This document shows, in pieces, positions 1,222-25,633 of a stretch of DNA of 25,633 nt. Position numbers and translations under genes: made by a program. The stretch lies in the IMG/VR virus record IMGVR_UViG_3300030329_005946, positions 5,600 through 31,232 of that record. One strand, given 5' to 3'. The number at the start of each line of letters is the position of its first letter. Within the stretch, counting starts at the first letter, position 1. The notes beneath the pieces are model-generated. The model was not told the DNA's origin and did no database searches. It worked only from the letters and a program-made list of their open reading frames with translations. The DNA is from a virus.

Positions 1222-1268
1222 TTGAGGAGGAGCATTCTCCTCAACGGGGTGCAGGGGCAGAGCCCCTG
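1222..1268. repeat. Double-hairpin unit, copy 1
   Basis: Hairpin A: TTGAGGAG (1222-1229) with CTCCTCAA (1237-1244). A linker CGGGGTG follows, then hairpin B: CAGGGGC (1252-1258) with GCCCCTG (1262-1268), loop AGA. It shares layout and linker with copy 2 at 1349-1394. Arrangement and size resemble bacterial REP-type palindromic repeats, but I cannot assign a family. Confidence 0.6.
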
Positions 1269-1348
1269 TCCACGTCTGTACAGTGTTACGATCAGTACCT
1301 AACCTGAGTCCTGTTCCGAATTGCGCAGCAATTGGGTCGGGGGATTCT

Positions 1349-1394
1349 AAGGGAGCCGACGCTCCCTTGGCGGGGTGAAGGGGCAGCGCCCCTT
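1349..1394. repeat. Double-hairpin unit, copy 2
   Basis: Hairpin A: AAGGGAGC (1349-1356) with GCTCCCTT (1361-1368). The same CGGGGTG linker follows (1371-1377), then hairpin B: AAGGGGC (1378-1384) with GCCCCTT (1388-1394), loop AGC. Relative to copy 1 the outer base pair of hairpin B changes from C-G to A-T on both sides, and hairpin A differs in sequence while keeping full pairing. A third lone hairpin B (AAGGGGC AGT GCCCC) is at 961-975. Confidence 0.6.
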
Positions 1395-1483
1395 TCCACA
1401 GTCCTGCTAAACGTGACACTCGCGCGCGCGGAATTGTTGACCGTTCATCGGTGCTTAGGCAGTCTGTAATTTGTGAGGTGACT

Positions 1484-1993
1484 ATGGGTAGGCAGGTTAA
1501 GCACATTGAAGTGCCAGATTCAGATGTGTCCGAGCTGGAAGATATGCTCGATGATCCAAGACTTACTGAGCGCATGAAAACGAGGTTCCGCATTGTGCTA
1601 TTGAAAGCAGACTTTCTGAGCCATTCTGCGGTCGCCGCTCAGTTGGGAACTAATAAGCAGTCCGTGATCAAGTGGATCAAGCGCTACCAAGAGGGAGGCA
1701 TTCCGGCATTGCAGGATGATCGTGCAGGCAAAGGTGGTCCATTAGGGAGACGTCGCGTCAGACGCTCGTTAAAGGGTGCCGCAGACAAGCTGCTGTCGTC
1801 TAACAGGTCACTGAGCCACGAGGATGTGGAGAGACTGGTCCTTACGCAGTTGAGAGAGGAGCCAGACGATGAACCGGGGCAGCCATATGCTACGCATAGC
1901 AAGGTGAAGGTGCAGTTGTTGAACGTCCTGGCTGACGTAGTAAAGAGCAAGAGTGATGGTGAGAGCGTTGAAGATCTTCTGGCATCATTGTAG
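1484..1993 (+). CDS. IS630-type helix-turn-helix DNA-binding protein (169 aa)
   Basis: Residues about 26-80 match the N-terminal helix-turn-helix region of IS630-family transposases: an arginine-rich helix ending RIVLLKADFLS, then HSAVAAQLGTNKQSVIKWIK and the tail RYQEGGIPALQDDRAGKGGP, equivalent to the usual 'WRxRFxxxGxxGLxDxxRxGRP' segment. The DDE catalytic domain that should follow is absent; instead there is a short charged C-terminal part (residues ~81-169) with no known motif. It should bind DNA without transposing it: either a domesticated regulator or a transposase remnant. ATG 1484 is preferred over an upstream ATG-less extension because GAGGTG lies five bases before it. The stop codon's last base is the first base of a nine-unit tandem repeat, so the repeats are plausible binding sites. 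Codon use is less T-biased than in the late genes. Confidence 0.75.
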   Translation: MGRQVKHIEVPDSDVSELEDMLDDPRLTERMKTRFRIVLLKADFLSHSAVAAQLGTNKQSVIKWIKRYQEGGIPALQDDRAGKGGPLGRRRVRRSLKGAADKLLSSNRSLSHEDVERLVLTQLREEPDDEPGQPYATHSKVKVQLLNVLADVVKSKSDGESVEDLLASL

Positions 1994-2174
1994 CTGCCTG
2001 AACAATAGTGCGGCGGCCTGAACGCTGATGAAGCTGCCTGAACGCTGAGATGCAGCTGCCTGAACAATAATGAAGCTGCCTGAACGCTGATGTAGCTGCC
2101 TGAACACTGGTGTAGCTGCCTGAACACTGATGTAGCGGCCTGAATGATGGTGCTGCGGCCTGAATGGTGGTGCT
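1993..2174. repeat. Nine tandem 20-base repeats (iteron-like array)
   Basis: Nine contiguous units fit the consensus GCNGCCTGAA followed by ten more variable bases ending mostly in TGATGNN or TGGTGNN. All are 20 bases except the third, which is 22. A truncated tenth begins GCT at 2175. There are no spacers. The array begins on the last base of the stop codon of the helix-turn-helix gene. Related units lie at 20-59. Iterons of a replication origin, a partition centromere or an operator array for the adjacent protein are all possible. Confidence 0.85.
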
Positions 2175-2290: not shown

Positions 2291-2525
2291 TCGGGCACTT
2301 CGGACCCCTATCGGGCACTTCGCGGGCACTTTTCGGGCACTTCGCAAAAAATCAACTGTCTGTAATTACTACTGTTTTACCCTAATCGGGCACTTGGGCA
2401 GATAGATGCATATATAAGGACCATCGCGCACGAGGCTTTTATGGCTCTAATATGGCATTTATCTGCCCAACTGCCCGACTACTGATTTTCGACCCTTCGG
2501 TGTTGCGTTTATGGGTCGGGCACTT
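2291..2525 (+). repeat. Six copies of the motif TCGGGCACTT upstream of the terminase
   Basis: Copies at 2291-2300, 2311-2320, 2323-2331 (CGGGCACTT, lacking the first T), 2333-2342, 2386-2395 and 2516-2525, all in the same direction. The first four are spaced 20, about 11 and about 11 bases apart, close to whole turns of the helix, as expected for side-by-side protein binding. Lambda-like phages carry terminase-binding repeats just before the small terminase gene, so a packaging site is one reading. An operator or replication origin is another. Confidence 0.75.
2386..2478. repeat. 19-base inverted repeat with 55-base AT-rich spacer
   Basis: The left arm (2386-2404, TCGGGCACTTGGGCAGATA) and the right arm (2460-2478, reverse complement TCGGGCAGTTGGGCAGATA) match at 18 of 19 bases. 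The left arm contains the fifth copy of the ten-base repeat and the right arm an inverted variant of it. The spacer (2405-2459) includes CATATATAAGG and CTAATATGG. It may be an operator pair around a promoter, a recognition site for terminase, or a replication element. Confidence 0.75.
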
Positions 2526-2567: not shown

Positions 2568-3143
2568 ATGACAAAGATTGAACTTTCCAAAGAATCCGTT
2601 CCTCCGTTTCCGTTGCTCGAGGGTGTCTTACAGGCGTCTCTTGAGAGCATTGCCGGTGGGTTTGATTGTTTAAGGAACCCGCCGACTGGCCTTAGTTTTT
2701 CTGAGAACGTTGCTGCGACTTATTGGCTGTGCCGAAATGAGTTGTTGTTTTCTGAGAATCTTCGGAGACATAACCCTGCGGTTTTTAATCCCCGCCATCG
2801 GTGGGTTGTTCGTATGATTTGGCGTTTTGTTGATGAGCTTCGGTCTGATGACTTATGTCAGCCTGCTGGGACAGGGCTTGGACCAGGTGTCGAGTCGCTT
2901 GGTCCGGTTTCTGGCGAGGATGATCCTCGTGCTTTGTGGTTTGTTCGTTGGCTTATAGACTTTATGACTGCTTATCACCTGCTTTTTCATGCGGATTCCA
3001 AGCCTTTTGAGAGATCTAAGGTTTATCGTCTGTTTTGTTCGGGTGAATTGAGCGAACATAAAGACTGGGTAGGTGAAGTTGCCAAGCGAATTGAAGGGCG
3101 AAAAAAGAAAGCAAGCTCTAATTGCAGAGCTGCGGCTGTGTAA
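2568..3143 (+). CDS. Probable small terminase subunit (191 aa), by position
   Basis: No clear family motif is visible. The assignment rests on its place directly before the large terminase and just after a repeat-rich region suited to DNA recognition. Small terminases bind the packaging site and hand the DNA to the large subunit. The protein is mixed helical, has several Trp residues in the middle (NPRHRWVVRMIWRFVDEL), no membrane segment, and a strongly basic C-terminus (KRIEGRKKKASSNCRAAAV). No classical helix-turn-helix can be called. ATG 2568 is chosen for the start codon, but it has no good ribosome binding site; GTG 2547 or TTG 2532 would add 7 or 12 residues. Its last 71 bases overlap the large terminase in another frame. 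It could instead be an unrelated early or structural gene. Confidence 0.5.
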   Translation: MTKIELSKESVPPFPLLEGVLQASLESIAGGFDCLRNPPTGLSFSENVAATYWLCRNELLFSENLRRHNPAVFNPRHRWVVRMIWRFVDELRSDDLCQPAGTGLGPGVESLGPVSGEDDPRALWFVRWLIDFMTAYHLLFHADSKPFERSKVYRLFCSGELSEHKDWVGEVAKRIEGRKKKASSNCRAAAV

Positions 3144-4749
3144 GGGTGACTTTTTCTATTTTTGTGAAAAGTATCTTCAGGTAGTTGCCAAATCTCGCGA
3201 TTCATCCGGTAGCTATTTGGTTAAATTGGTTCCCAATCGGGCGCAACGAGAGATTATTGCCTCCTTGGTTCGTGGTGATCGTGCTTACGTCTTGAAGGCT
3301 CGTAAGCTTGGTGCCAGTACCATTGTGGCTGCCTACTTTTTTTGGCGATGTCTTTTTACTCCTCACTTTAAGGTGCTTGTTGTTGCCCACAAGCGCGTTG
3401 CTGCTAAGGAGATTTTTAGTATTTACTCTCGTTTTTATGCGAATTTGCCTTCTTTTTTGAAATTTAAGACTCAGGCCGCCAGTACCGAGATGCTTCGTTT
3501 TTCTCATGGTGGAGTTGTTCAGTGTACTACAAGCAGTTCGGACGATGCTCGCGGCGGCACGCCCCACGCTCTGCATTTGTCTGAGTTTGCTCACTATAAT
3601 GATCTGAACAATACGTTTGCTTCGATTATGAACTCTGTTCCCGATAGTGCGATGGTTGTTCGCGAGACCACTGCTAACGGTTTGAACCTGGCCCATAAGC
3701 TTTGGCTTGAAAAGGATGGTTTTGAGAAGGTCTTTATTCCTTGGACTTGGGATATTGACTATGTTTCTGATGATAAGCCTCGTTCAAAGTTTCCTCCTTG
3801 GTTTTCTCAGTATTGTCGAGACCACAACCTTTCGCGTGGCCAACGGTGGTGGGCTTATAAGAACTGGAAGGAGAAGCAGGGCGGTAATTGGGATCTTTTT
3901 AACCAAGAGAATCCTATTTCTCCTGATGTTGCTTTTATTACGAGTGGTGGGCGGTTTTTTCAGGCGCATTTTGCTGGTTATCGAATTACCAGAGACAATG
4001 TTCACAGTTATCTCGGTTATAAGGAGTTTGTCCCTCCGCAAAAACACCGGCTTTACATTACTGGCGTGGATAGTGCGAATGGAGATCCTAATGGAGACTT
4101 GAGCGCCTTTTGTACGATGGATGTTACTGATCCCCGTAAACCTGCGATTGTTTCGTCATACTATAACTGGATGCCACTTCGTCCTTTTTCTGAGATTGTT
4201 GACGAACAGGTTAAGAGGTACGGGTCTCTTGCTGTTGTTGAGACCCCCGCCGGCACGGTTATTACTGAGCTTTTGGCCGAGAGAGGCAGGTATTTGTACC
4301 GAAGGGTCCAACATGACAAGTTTAAGGGCAGGTGGACAGAGAAACTTGGATTTAATACCAACAAAAGTACTCGCGATTTGCTTTTGAGCAGACTCCATAC
4401 TGTTGTTGAGAATAGGTCTCTTACTATTCCTTGTTCTCGTTTGAAGGCTGAGATTAATACTTTTGTTTTTAAGAAGGGTAAGCCGCAGGCTGAGTCTGGG
4501 GATCATGACGATATGATCTTTGCGGCTGCTCTTGCTTTGGCTGGAAGGTCTCAGGTTGCTCAGATTGAGCGTGTTGTTCGTACTCGTCGCCCAGATAATT
4601 TAAGAGATGTTTTGGCGTTTGAGATGACTACTGGGAAGATGTTTGAGGAGGCCGTTGGTGAGGGTTATTTTGTTTCTGAGGAAGCTGACAATCCTCTTAT
4701 TGATGCTATTGGCGAAATAGATAGCTTGCAGTCCCGGTGGGATTCGTGA
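3073..4749 (+). CDS. terL: Terminase large subunit (558 aa)
   Basis: This is the DNA-packaging motor, with an ATPase that drives DNA through the portal and a nuclease that cuts genome units. The N-terminal ATPase shows a deviant Walker A at about residues 73-85 (VLKARKLGASTIVAA) and a Walker B ending in Ser-Glu at 166-171 (ALHLSE, E171 catalytic). The C-terminal RNase H-like nuclease shows D333 in GVDSANGDPNGD, E390 in VVETPAGT and D477/D479/D480 in GDHDDMIFAAAL. The length is normal. The start is less sure: GTG at 3073 gives a 71-base overlap with the upstream gene and only a weak binding site; TTG at 3079 or 3091 is possible and would not affect any motif. It is followed after 26 bases by the scaffold candidate. 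Confidence 0.95.
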   Translation: MKLPSELKGEKRKQALIAELRLCKGDFFYFCEKYLQVVAKSRDSSGSYLVKLVPNRAQREIIASLVRGDRAYVLKARKLGASTIVAAYFFWRCLFTPHFKVLVVAHKRVAAKEIFSIYSRFYANLPSFLKFKTQAASTEMLRFSHGGVVQCTTSSSDDARGGTPHALHLSEFAHYNDLNNTFASIMNSVPDSAMVVRETTANGLNLAHKLWLEKDGFEKVFIPWTWDIDYVSDDKPRSKFPPWFSQYCRDHNLSRGQRWWAYKNWKEKQGGNWDLFNQENPISPDVAFITSGGRFFQAHFAGYRITRDNVHSYLGYKEFVPPQKHRLYITGVDSANGDPNGDLSAFCTMDVTDPRKPAIVSSYYNWMPLRPFSEIVDEQVKRYGSLAVVETPAGTVITELLAERGRYLYRRVQHDKFKGRWTEKLGFNTNKSTRDLLLSRLHTVVENRSLTIPCSRLKAEINTFVFKKGKPQAESGDHDDMIFAAALALAGRSQVAQIERVVRTRRPDNLRDVLAFEMTTGKMFEEAVGEGYFVSEEADNPLIDAIGEIDSLQSRWDS

Positions 4750-5504: not shown

Positions 5505-7013
5505 ATGACTTTGCCTATGTTGAGCACAAGTAGCTTGCAGTCGATGCTGCAAGAATACTATCGGGGTCCGGTTGCTGATCAACTGAACCAGGAAGTGCTG
5601 GCTGTTGAACTGTTCGAGAAGGGCAGTTTCACTTGGGCCGGTAAAAATGTGATTATTCCATTGCACACTGGACGTAACACTGGTGTTGGCTATCGTAATG
5701 AAGCCGGCGCTGCTACAGGTGGAGCTTTGCCTTCCGCTGGTATGCAGATTCACAATCGTATTGTTTCGAATGCTACGTTCTTGTATGGGCGTTTTGAGCT
5801 TTCGGGGCCGACGATGGCTTCTGCTTCCAAGGGTGGCATGAACTCGTTCATTGGCGCTCTTGATAACGAAATGACCCGTCTTGTTCAGGACATTCGTAAT
5901 CATGCAAACGTCAACTTTTTTGTTGGCAATGAGTGTCGTGGTCTGATTAATGAAAAGAAAGTTGGGCCAACTCTTGTTGGTGCTTCTACTTACAGCGCAA
6001 ACCCTGCTTTGCAGGTAATGGGTCCGGCTGTCACTTTCGAATATGATGGTGATTTTTCGGTGTTTGATGGCACTTGGGTCAGCTCTGCTGGTACTGCCCC
6101 TGCTGCTGTTAACGGCGTTGCTGCTGGTCAGGCTCAAAATGCTGTTCGCATTGATTTGGTTCGTCTGGATACTTACGAAAAGTTGCCATTGACCGGTAAC
6201 GATGCCGGTATCTTTGTTTCTGGCTTCAATAAGTCGCTTCGAACAATTGATATTGCTGGCGCTTCTTCGAATGTTCCAGGTACGCCTATCTTTACCACTG
6301 CTACGGTGACGCCTGGTGTTGGTATTGCGGTTTGCATGAACCAGAATCAGTTGTTTACTGCCGCTGTTCCTGCCAACTTGATGGGTACTTTCCGTTCTGT
6401 TGATCACGAGCCTCATGGCATTTTGCAGAATCTCTGCGATGATGCTTTGTTTAATATTGCTCGTAGTAATGGTTCTGCTGACGGCGGCGAGAGCTTGCAG
6501 TCAACTATTAGTACGCATGTTGTTGGTGTTGGTGCCGATGCTCGTGGTGCAGGTGCTTTTGATCCTGACCGTTTGCAGAAGCTTCTTGATGACATCGATG
6601 TTGTGTCTGGCAAGGCTCCGAATATGTGGATTATGCACAATTCGACCCGCCAGACTTACATTGCTGGTGCAATCTTGATTTCGGCTACGACTGGTGCGCG
6701 TGTTCAGCAGACTACTTCTGCTGTTACCGCTTCTGGTCTCGATGTTGGCTATGATGACAATGCTCTTGGGTACGGCGGCATTAAGATGCGCCGTAGTCGT
6801 CATTGTCCGAAGGGCATGTTCATTGCTTTGAGCACTGATGCATGGAAGCTGGCTGAGTTGAAGTCCGGTGATTTTGCCGATTTGGACGGCGCGATTCTTT
6901 CTCGTAAGGCAAATTCTGATGCTTGGGAAGGTTTCTGGCGCTGGTATCACCAAGTTGTTTGTTGTTACCCGAATGCCAACGGCATTCTCTTTGGGTTCAA
7001 CTTGGCTACATAA
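5505..7013 (+). CDS. Major capsid protein (502 aa)
   Basis: The N-terminal segment (YYRGPVADQLNQEVLAVELF then WAGKNVIIPLHTGRNTGVGY) and an all-alpha/beta, Gly- and Ala-rich body of this length fit the HK97-fold major capsid proteins of podovirus-like phages. It has no signal peptide or membrane segment. The C-terminal part (residues ~430-500: MRRSRHCPKGMFIALSTDAW, then WRWYHQVVCCYPNANGILFG) is typical of the end of such proteins, where the last strand returns to the core domain. The binding site AGGAG lies six bases upstream of ATG 5505. It follows the scaffold candidate and is followed at once by a strong terminator, as expected for the most heavily expressed late gene. I am confident of the role but not of the exact capsid family. 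Confidence 0.88.
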   Translation: MTLPMLSTSSLQSMLQEYYRGPVADQLNQEVLAVELFEKGSFTWAGKNVIIPLHTGRNTGVGYRNEAGAATGGALPSAGMQIHNRIVSNATFLYGRFELSGPTMASASKGGMNSFIGALDNEMTRLVQDIRNHANVNFFVGNECRGLINEKKVGPTLVGASTYSANPALQVMGPAVTFEYDGDFSVFDGTWVSSAGTAPAAVNGVAAGQAQNAVRIDLVRLDTYEKLPLTGNDAGIFVSGFNKSLRTIDIAGASSNVPGTPIFTTATVTPGVGIAVCMNQNQLFTAAVPANLMGTFRSVDHEPHGILQNLCDDALFNIARSNGSADGGESLQSTISTHVVGVGADARGAGAFDPDRLQKLLDDIDVVSGKAPNMWIMHNSTRQTYIAGAILISATTGARVQQTTSAVTASGLDVGYDDNALGYGGIKMRRSRHCPKGMFIALSTDAWKLAELKSGDFADLDGAILSRKANSDAWEGFWRWYHQVVCCYPNANGILFGFNLAT

Positions 7014-22105: not shown

Positions 22106-25100
22106 ATGCCTAAAAGCCCAACTCTTCTTGATGCTTATCAACGTTCCGTTAAGTTTCAGCGACGCCAGTGGAAGTCTTCTGACGCTGCTACTAGCGCGGC
22201 CTCTATTGAGTTTAAGAAAGAGTTTGGGATTACTCCGAGCGAGGCTTTTTCTCGTTTTGGTCAAGATGCCCTTATTTCTGATATTCGTAAGTCTTTGGAC
22301 CAGGAGGCCTCTTCTCGGAAAGAGTATGTCGATGCGATTGCTGGCAAGTCTCCTGATGCTAAGGCTTTTGGCGAGTATGTGGACCACAAGACTTCTCGGG
22401 GCACCCAGCAGGCTTTGGATCGTGGTGATTTTGCCGCTGCTTATGGTCTTCATTCTGAGCATAAGCGCTCCTTGGTTCCTCCTCGCCCTCCTATCGCAAA
22501 GACAAAGCCGGGGTTTATTGCTCGAGTAAAGCCCGTTTGGGATGAGGCGAAACAAACGATTGTTTCTGGCACGGCGGGTGTTGCGGCAAACATTGCGGGT
22601 GGCGTTTATGGCGCGGCTGATAGCACTTATAAGTCCGCCATTTCTCCTCTTATTACGCAGCAGCTTCGGGATCTTGAGGAACTTAAGGCTTCTGGCGCGC
22701 AGTACGCTCCTCCAGATTCTGAGCTGATTGGTCGTCGCTGGATGTCTCCGCGTCTAATGGAGGCTCAACTTCGAGGCGGCGGCGGATCTCAGTTTCGCCC
22801 GAAGAGGGAGCCCCGTCCTATTGATCAGGCTATTGATAGCGCAAGGCGCTTGGTTGCCGAGGTTGGCCCATCTCCAATGCTTGCCCAGCTTGAGCACGCC
22901 GAACTTGAGCTTCAGAAGAAGCTTTCTGAGGGTGGTTTTGCTGATAATTTGTGGAAAGACAAGGACGATGTTCAGCGTGGAGTGAAGGAGCTTATTCAGT
23001 TTGCGGTAAACTGGAAGGAAACAGGAAAAGAGGGCGAAGGTCTTTGGGCCTCTGTTGCGGCTGATTTTGAAAAAGGAAAAGAGTTTGGCGGCATGATGGC
23101 TGCCGGCCTTCTCGGGATGACTCTTCACCAGTTGACTACCCGGCCTGACAAGCAGTTTATTACGCGCCCCCTCACTACGCTTCTTACTCTCTTGCCTGTC
23201 GCCCGAGCGCTTAAGCACACCAAGATGATGCAGAATCCGCACATTGTTAAGGCGATGGGTTATGCGGAGGTCGCTGAGGCGGCGGCCCTGCGGGGAGCGA
23301 CGAGCGGCGCTCTTTTTGGTTCCTTTATAGGCGACACCGCTGCTTTTGCGGCAGGCGCCGTCATTCCCCCTGCTATGCGTTTGGTCTTCGGGAAGGCTTG
23401 GGCGGAGGCCGCCAAGCGGGGGGTGGTGACACCGGGCGCTGTTGCTGAGGCGCAGCAGAGGTGGAAGCGCAACCTTATAGACCAGGCCGCGGCTGAGAAT
23501 GTCGAGGTCAGTCAGGTCTATGAGAGCCTTGCCGCAGATCCCCAGCAGCTCGCTATGACAATCAGACAGGCGATGAATCCCGCCTCGGGCGAGGTCGCGA
23601 GAGGCGAGGCGAGGATGGCGTCGCCGAAGCAGCGCGACCCTTCGATGAAGGAGATCCCCGGCGATGCCCCCGGCCCCGCGACGCTAGACCCCGCCGCTCC
23701 TGTGGCGGCCTATGACAGACAGACAAGAACATTTCAGGTTAACGAGGCGCGACTTCGCCAGACTTACGACAATCGCGCTTGGAGAAACCCGCTCCCCGGC
23801 GTTGCCGCCCTTCCTGAAGGTGTTATCAGGAGTTTAGACGACTGGCGCAATTTCAATCGCACTCGACAGTTTGTCATGGCGATGAGCAAGAGAAACCCTG
23901 AGTGGACTCCTTTTGAATACCAAAATAAAGTTAACCAGTGGGCAGTCAATCAGCTTCTTAGGGAGCGCGGAGAAAGAATCCAGAAGCCTATTGATGTCTG
24001 GCATGACGGAGACGGGGTTCCTAATTTCGTTGAGACCTTTGAATGGGACCCCGCGCCCAAGATGCTTGTTGAGCGTCCGCAGGTCGGCGACGTTGGCCCT
24101 TCCGCAAAAGTTGTTGGCGAGATTAAGCCGGAAAAGAAAAAGGCGGTTGTTGTTGGAACATCACAGCCTATTTATGTGTTTGGCCGCAAGGTGACCGAGC
24201 ATGAATGGGGCTCCAAAGATTTTATTAAGGCTCGCGAGAGCGTTAGGTCGAAGGATGGCAGTTTTGCTCGGCCTTATGTTTTAGAGCCTCCTCCTCTTGA
24301 TTCCGGGCTTGTTTCTCCTGATTTTAAGAAAGGCGCTGCCGATCTTAGAAAGAGACATGCCGAGCTGTTGTCTAAGCAAAAAGAATTTCAGCATATGTTT
24401 ACCGCCCATGCTGATGGCAGGTTTGATTTGACCCCTTCTCCGGGGTCTCTCGCTGGTAAGCGCAAAACTAAGCTTGAAAGACAGCTTGAGGAGTACAATC
24501 AAGATCTTAGCGAGTTTCATTTTTCAATGCATGAATTCGAGATCACGGCTCAGGCGGAGACAAGGAAGGGGTTTGTTGATACTGGAGATCGCGTCCTTGA
24601 TATGAAGGCAAGAGAGAAGGAAGGCCCTGTTGCGGCCAACGAGGACGTTCCTCTTGCTGACGTTAAGAAGCTTGAGCCCCTTCAGCAGGCAAAGGCCAAA
24701 ACGGCTCCCGGTGCGAAGCAGACCAGGCAGCGTAGTGTTCGGATGGATATGCCCGATTTCAGCAAAGACCCGGCTGCCAAGCCTGTCTGGAATGAGCTTA
24801 TTGATGCTTTAAATGCAGATGTTGCCCGAACTGGGCGTTTTTCGGATGAAAATTACAGTCGCTTTAGGGATCTTGAGACACGGCTTCTTAATAAAGGGGC
24901 CTATAAGTCTTTCTCTCGCCGTAGAGGCCCCGGCCCCATGGAGCCTGCTCCGCTGGGCGGCATTAGAACTGAGGTTGTTGCTGACGGCGTTTCTCTACCT
25001 TATTACAAAAGGATGGACGGTGGCTTGAGGCGTGTTTTTGATATTGAGTCTGACGGAACAGTTCTTCCTGTTGACGCCGACAAGCTTGAGCCCTCCCGCC

Positions 25101-25633
25101 CGAAGCCTCCCAGACAAATGCCTGCTGTTGCTGAGTCCCCTCACCTTAAAGCCGGTGTAGATATTATTGCCGAAAGGCTTAAGAGGAGTTATGGCGATCT
25201 CGTGAGCGTGGACAAGAAGAAGATTGCCGCTGTTTTTGGCAGCGTCTTGCTTGATGACGCGGTTACTTTGTTGAAGGGCGAGTCCTTCCGTGGCCGCGTT
25301 GTTGGCATTCTTGCCGACCGCATGGGCCTGAAGGGGAAGGAGGCGAGGAATCTTTATAAGTCTCTTTCTGACAAGCTGTTTCAGATTGCCAGGGACAGCT
25401 TTGACCCCAACAAGGTTCAATCTGCTGAGTTTAGAGTTGACGTGGGGCACACGGGCGGAAAGGCCGATAGCGCTGGCCGTGTTGTGATTACTCTTGAAGA
25501 TCTTATCTTTGAGGCCGTCTCGACTATGAAGAAGCAGGGAAAGACCAAGCTTCTTGATGATGCTCGAGCCCGAGCCTTGCAGATTACCGCCGAGGGTTTC
25601 GCTCAAAAGTCGGAAAGGGCCCAGTATGTGATC
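22106..25633 (+). CDS. Very large internal-virion-like protein, 3' end outside window (>1176 aa)
   Basis: One frame stays open from ATG 22106 to the last base of the window (exactly 1176 codons), so the protein is incomplete. AAGGTG lies five bases before the ATG. The N-terminus is helical and basic (YQRSVKFQRRQWKSS). Gly/Ala-rich, partly hydrophobic stretches occur near residues ~155-170 (GTAGVAANIAGGVYGAAD), ~328-345 (GGMMAAGLLGMTLHQ) and ~400-425 (FGSFIGDTAAFAAGAVIPPA), which could contact membranes. The rest is mostly charged helix with Pro-rich linkers. I saw no transglycosylase, protease or polymerase motif. By order it matches the largest ejection protein (T7 gp16 type). Residues ~387-538 (bases ~23265-23725) use GC-rich, C/G-ending codons unlike the flanks. 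An unread C-terminal enzyme domain is possible. Confidence 0.75.
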   Translation, partial: MPKSPTLLDAYQRSVKFQRRQWKSSDAATSAASIEFKKEFGITPSEAFSRFGQDALISDIRKSLDQEASSRKEYVDAIAGKSPDAKAFGEYVDHKTSRGTQQALDRGDFAAAYGLHSEHKRSLVPPRPPIAKTKPGFIARVKPVWDEAKQTIVSGTAGVAANIAGGVYGAADSTYKSAISPLITQQLRDLEELKASGAQYAPPDSELIGRRWMSPRLMEAQLRGGGGSQFRPKREPRPIDQAIDSARRLVAEVGPSPMLAQLEHAELELQKKLSEGGFADNLWKDKDDVQRGVKELIQFAVNWKETGKEGEGLWASVAADFEKGKEFGGMMAAGLLGMTLHQLTTRPDKQFITRPLTTLLTLLPVARALKHTKMMQNPHIVKAMGYAEVAEAAALRGATSGALFGSFIGDTAAFAAGAVIPPAMRLVFGKAWAEAAKRGVVTPGAVAEAQQRWKRNLIDQAAAENVEVSQVYESLAADPQQLAMTIRQAMNPASGEVARGEARMASPKQRDPSMKEIPGDAPGPATLDPAAPVAAYDRQTRTFQVNEARLRQTYDNRAWRNPLPGVAALPEGVIRSLDDWRNFNRTRQFVMAMSKRNPEWTPFEYQNKVNQWAVNQLLRERGERIQKPIDVWHDGDGVPNFVETFEWDPAPKMLVERPQVGDVGPSAKVVGEIKPEKKKAVVVGTSQPIYVFGRKVTEHEWGSKDFIKARESVRSKDGSFARPYVLEPPPLDSGLVSPDFKKGAADLRKRHAELLSKQKEFQHMFTAHADGRFDLTPSPGSLAGKRKTKLERQLEEYNQDLSEFHFSMHEFEITAQAETRKGFVDTGDRVLDMKAREKEGPVAANEDVPLADVKKLEPLQQAKAKTAPGAKQTRQRSVRMDMPDFSKDPAAKPVWNELIDALNADVARTGRFSDENYSRFRDLETRLLNKGAYKSFSRRRGPGPMEPAPLGGIRTEVVADGVSLPYYKRMDGGLRRVFDIESDGTVLPVDADKLEPSRPKPPRQMPAVAESPHLKAGVDIIAERLKRSYGDLVSVDKKKIAAVFGSVLLDDAVTLLKGESFRGRVVGILADRMGLKGKEARNLYKSLSDKLFQIARDSFDPNKVQSAEFRVDVGHTGGKADSAGRVVITLEDLIFEAVSTMKKQGKTKLLDDARARALQITAEGFAQKSERAQYVI

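Follow-up and report, generated by a model that had tools for sequence, protein, structure and literature searches.

What does a phage gain from a gene for a transposase-type helix-turn-helix (HTH) protein whose stop codon runs into an array of tandem repeats? The gene and array lie in a 25,633-nucleotide stretch of viral DNA (hereafter the window), which covers positions 5600-31232 of a virus record 39,987 bp long, a tailed phage of about 40 kb. A preliminary description of this DNA had suggested that gene and array may form a new initiator, segregation or repressor system. Our analysis suggests that a replication or partition role is unlikely, and sequence comparison points to a stand-alone, selected IS630 DNA-binding-domain protein in a phage, adjoining a conserved repeat element.

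The HTH protein and its genomic setting

The window encodes a large terminase, a major capsid protein (MCP), a P22-like portal, an M15 endolysin and large virion proteins, all recognised as tailed-phage genes with Pfam and PHROG. In the phage genome the leftward arm contains the replication genes (a PrimPol-D5 helicase, a DEAD/ResIII helicase and an exonuclease), and the rightward, late arm contains the structural genes. The rightward arm opens with the HTH gene, at the divergence from the leftward arm; next come the gene for a 191-aa helical protein (ORF191) and then that for the large terminase (terL). The leftward arm also carries a C-5 cytosine DNA methyltransferase (L002:1991-3526, minus strand) with a possible anti-restriction role, and a predicted protein of 1934 aa (window 22106-25633; L003:7705-13509) closes the late arm. 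On direct reading, hairpin motifs resembling GGGGTGCAGGGGCAGAGCCCCTGTCCAC recur between the divergent arms, at window 1250-1410.

The HTH gene (1484..1993, plus strand) runs from an ATG at 1484 to a TAG at 1991-1993; the homologous gene of a sister phage begins at the equivalent ATG, and a good Shine-Dalgarno can be read upstream of the gene in both phages. The 169-aa product contains a homeodomain-like HTH at residues 30-88 (Pfam HTH_23, 1.4e-9; HTH_29, 7e-9). Over residues 1-118 it is matched by IS630 transposases in a tblastn search of 7.3 Gb of plasmid sequence (E-values down to 1e-6), and from residue 1 onwards it is about 30-36% identical to intact IS630 transposases; an alignment with four intact transposases gives 29-34% over the N-terminal module. 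The local match extends to residue 142 and includes the conserved ATH motif, with a linker insertion of about 25 residues in the phage protein. The reading frame stops at 169 aa, and neither the window nor the sister locus (L004) yielded a DDE domain, or what is left of one, to tblastn with full transposases. Two statements of the preliminary description, that the gene keeps the DNA-binding half of an IS630 transposase and that the DDE catalytic part is missing, are thus borne out by the Pfam matches, the tblastn searches and the alignments. Judged by its sequence, the protein corresponds to the N-terminal DNA-binding module of the IS630 type, standing alone and lacking the DDE domain.

IS630-aware alignment identified 80 related loci in bacterial and archaeal genomes, about half of which are full-length (~365 aa) IS630 transposases with a DDE domain. 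Most of the shorter loci are interrupted by stop codons or frameshifts or run off a contig end, and many still have a DDE stretch nearby. Because the transposase family is broad, descent was probably from transposase to phage protein. Homologues with an intact DDE domain, which the preliminary description would have counted against its module, do exist among bacterial transposases, and only there: the phage homologue is without one. A profile search of genome contigs with the two-phage alignment returned no match, and a collection of 50,697 phage records contains nothing that matches the HTH protein (at E 0.01) or the DNA. A distant relative has an annotated HTH protein, Shocker gp12, encoded upstream of a terminase; it was considered as a homologue and set aside, homology not being detectable.

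Conservation between two sister phages

Relatives were sought in IMG/VR with the HTH protein, TerL, the MCP and IS630-aware alignment. This yielded one sister phage, a 40,571-bp record of identical gene order, the remaining matches being unrelated phages or IS630 elements. The records of the two sisters are colinear but open the circle at different points, and both are therefore probably near-complete. Among four proteins compared, the HTH protein is the most conserved, at 88% amino acid identity (TerL, 82%; MCP, 62%; ORF191, 61%). Its gene is only 42% identical at codon position 3, with dN at 0.11 and dS saturated. Within this one comparison of two genomes, from which all conservation values in this report are taken, the sequence data indicate that the HTH gene is under strong purifying selection, and the gene is therefore very likely to be functional.

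Between the HTH gene and terL there is a single gene, ORF191 (2568..3143, plus strand), which encodes an all-helical protein and overlaps the start of terL (3073..4749, plus strand; TerL_ATPase, 1.2e-5; phrog_5989, 6.6e-27), making it a positional small-terminase candidate. ORF191 matches no family, and its AlphaFold model (pLDDT 74) has no convincing match in the PDB. Three unnamed viral proteins match it in BFVD and provide no function; since one of them is 60% identical (A0A516LN09), there may be a larger group of such phages beyond the collections covered here.

The array itself (1992..2173, plus strand) comprises nine tandem units with the core GCkGCCTGAA, eight of them 20 bp long and one (unit 3) 22 bp long, and is detected by TRF with a score of 169 at period 20. 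Identity at a lag of 20 is 0.72, whereas none of 5000 shuffles exceeded 0.40. Twelve of the 20 columns are invariant (GCkGCCTGAA..T..TG), which exceeds random scatter in a test that ignores copying between units and is suggestive only. The array DNA forms no stable hairpin (z 0.3), and its two-unit pattern occurs in no other viral contig. Rfam searches gave no significant family. The nine repeats, reported earlier as running from the stop codon, are real, and the exact start is the second base of that codon. They are not a constant companion of the gene: the 20-bp repeat is missing from the entire 40.6-kb record of the sister phage, even with one mismatch allowed, and so does not follow the stop codon of its HTH gene. 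A homologue without neighbouring repeats is one part of what the preliminary description named as refuting its own proposal.

In the sister phage, the intergenic stretch that corresponds to the array carries an unrelated 37-bp tandem repeat in two copies that are 95% alike (L004:7035-7108). A structured element of about 87 nt also occurs there in two copies (L004:5635-5720 and 6906-6992), 1272 bp apart and on either side of the HTH gene. The copies have identical outer strands, and their inner stems differ in sequence but still pair (z of the RNA fold, -4.4 and -2.8). The element has no Rfam match and is not in the window's genome, and its core is found in no other viral contig.

What the two phages do have in common is a noncoding element of 235 bp (2292-2526) between the array and ORF191, a repeat cluster directly downstream of the array that the preliminary description did not report. 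Nucleotide identity to the sister over 2301-2526 is 75%, above that of several structural genes. In both phages exact copies of the CGGGCACTT 9-mer number six per genome, all inside the element. Four CGGGCACTT repeats, spaced 20, 11 and 11 bp apart, occupy 2292..2342 (plus strand), and a 35-nt block at 2323..2357, containing two CGGGCACTT repeats, an A-tract and ATCAACT, is identical in both phages according to alignments and a sliding identity profile. Further downstream is an inverted repeat with 27-nt arms that are 89% complementary and separated by 45 nt (left arm 2383..2409, right arm 2455..2481, plus strand), the sister counterpart having 21-nt arms. The single-strand DNA fold has a z of -6.5 here (RNA fold, -8.3) and -5.9 in the sister, and the argument from structure is modest because one compensatory pair change between the phages is set against one broken pair. 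The last CGGGCACTT copy lies at 2515..2525 (plus strand), ahead of ORF191.

Possible functions of the locus

The reading that we prefer, tentatively, is that the N-terminal DNA-binding module of an IS630 transposase was taken over by a tailed phage and now serves as a protein in its own right. This protein would bind DNA repeats in the control region that separates its gene from the terminase genes, and would either regulate entry into late/terminase expression or mark that region. Because the HTH is near-identical in the two phages, a shared DNA target is to be expected, and because the element is shared and the array is private, the element is favoured as that target. The CGGGCACTT/inverted-repeat element (2292-2526) is thus more likely to be the selected site than the 20-bp array, which may provide extra, lineage-specific sites. 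It is quite possible, though short of probable, that the co-opted domain acts on the CGGGCACTT element region as a late/terminase regulator with the array as an accessory. Against this, the AlphaFold model of the HTH protein, built on a two-sequence alignment, has a pLDDT of 41, too low for a fold search, the conserved element contains no convincing sigma-70 promoter, and a packaging site or an origin recognised by the PrimPol-D5 helicase would fit the element just as well. The readings weighed here are not mutually exclusive, and an element that is an origin or a pac site, a protein that is a regulator and an array that is neutral may co-exist.

A neutral array, which would have arisen by tandem duplication and persisted without function because the intergenic stretch tolerates variation, is possible but somewhat unlikely. 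The sister phage fits this explanation, as it lacks the array and has the unrelated 37-bp tandem repeats in that stretch; yet the units in the window have diverged from one another and still retain the invariant columns, with the caveat on copying between units given above. It is similarly doubtful, if conceivable, that the domesticated IS630 domain is a recognition factor for phage packaging (a small-terminase function) or for the start of the late genes at the CGGGCACTT element, with the fast-evolving private array as a second binding region.

Rather unlikely is a packaging-site factor in the narrower sense, in which the HTH protein, alone or with ORF191, would be small-terminase-like and the repeats up to terL would constitute the pac region for headful packaging. 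The HTH gene is two genes upstream of terL, and by analogy the private array with its conserved neighbour resembles the SPP1 boxA repeats that are missing from SF6 (PMC4737164). By position, however, ORF191, which overlaps terL, makes a stronger small-terminase candidate. The colinear records with different cut points would fit circularly permuted genomes, but contig cut points may be an accident of assembly. No small-terminase family is matched above the cut-off by the HTH protein; its match to Terminase_5 (E 0.019) is below the curated score, and many small terminases are too diverged for profiles.

Equally improbable, in our judgement, is that the CGGGCACTT/inverted-repeat element serves as the replication origin and is recognised by the PrimPol-D5 helicase through its C-terminal domain, in which case the HTH protein would be a separate regulator and the array incidental. 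The phage does encode a protein with these two domains (Prim-Pol, 7.3e-30; D5_N, 6.6e-30), with a sub-threshold match to an RFX-type DNA-binding domain at the C-terminus, and SCCmec Cch2 and SaPI Rep offer possible analogues (PMC7581432), although the helicase gene is not adjacent to the element as it is in SaPI and SCCmec. On either arm the genes are oriented away from this region. In the sister phage the cumulative GC skew has its minimum near here, but the skew tracks gene direction and is weak evidence, and the minimum lies elsewhere in the window's own genome.

The originally proposed module, in which the HTH protein and the 20-bp array would act as an iteron-type initiator or segregation unit, is highly improbable: the array does adjoin the gene, is helically phased (20 bp) and has a conserved core of invariant columns, but the only homologous phage, and only close homologue of the gene, keeps the gene without the array, family searches with the HTH protein gave neither Rep nor ParB (Pfam; for Rep also PHROG), the locus is a late/terminase one, and the reading is weakened by the phage having its own PrimPol-D5 replicase encoded elsewhere. 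The repressor role that the preliminary description also suggested, or a regulator role, may still apply.

In eukaryotes, the DNA-binding domains of transposases are often re-used as regulators. A search of open-access papers returned none whose title and abstract concern phage-domesticated IS630 HTH proteins. If confirmed, the co-option preferred here would show how phages gain new genome-recognition factors and, since near-identical HTHs should share a target, the pair of phages offers a simple test of co-evolution between a protein and its DNA site.

Comparison with known systems

The closest relatives of the phage protein are found in IS630-family transposases (ISPpu2-like; Tc1/mariner superfamily), with which it can be aligned from residue 1 to about residue 142, across the N-terminal HTH, the linker and the ATH motif. 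Unlike these transposases, the phage protein has no DDE domain, carries a 25-residue linker insertion and has a different C-terminus.

In gene layout, the locus is reminiscent of late control in lambda, where the Q gene is followed by its late promoter. Here also, a regulator-like gene stands directly ahead of noncoding control DNA and of the late genes; unlike in the case of lambda Q, no promoter was identified, and family searches revealed no homology to Q.

The origins of SaPI and SCCmec elements, which involve D5/Rep helicases, provide a second parallel. SCCmec Cch2, a D5_N-type protein, binds direct repeats that share an intergenic region with inverted repeats, its C-terminal domain having been assayed on the repeats it binds, and the C-terminal domain of SaPI Rep recognises the iterons of the origin (PMC7581432). 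Direct and inverted intergenic repeats and a PrimPol-D5 helicase are also present in the phage. In SaPI and SCCmec, however, the origin is beside the helicase gene, whereas the phage repeats are not and are a putative origin only.

Finally, the pac region of SPP1 and SF6 spans the small-terminase promoters and the start of the gene and holds direct repeats; the boxA repeats of SPP1 are not found in its relative SF6, yet packaging works alike in the two phages (PMC4737164). The phage locus differs from these in that ORF191 intervenes and the HTH is of the transposase type. Like the small terminase and pac of SPP1/SF6 (PMC4737164), it nevertheless combines an HTH protein with direct repeats near terL, and these repeats vary between relatives.
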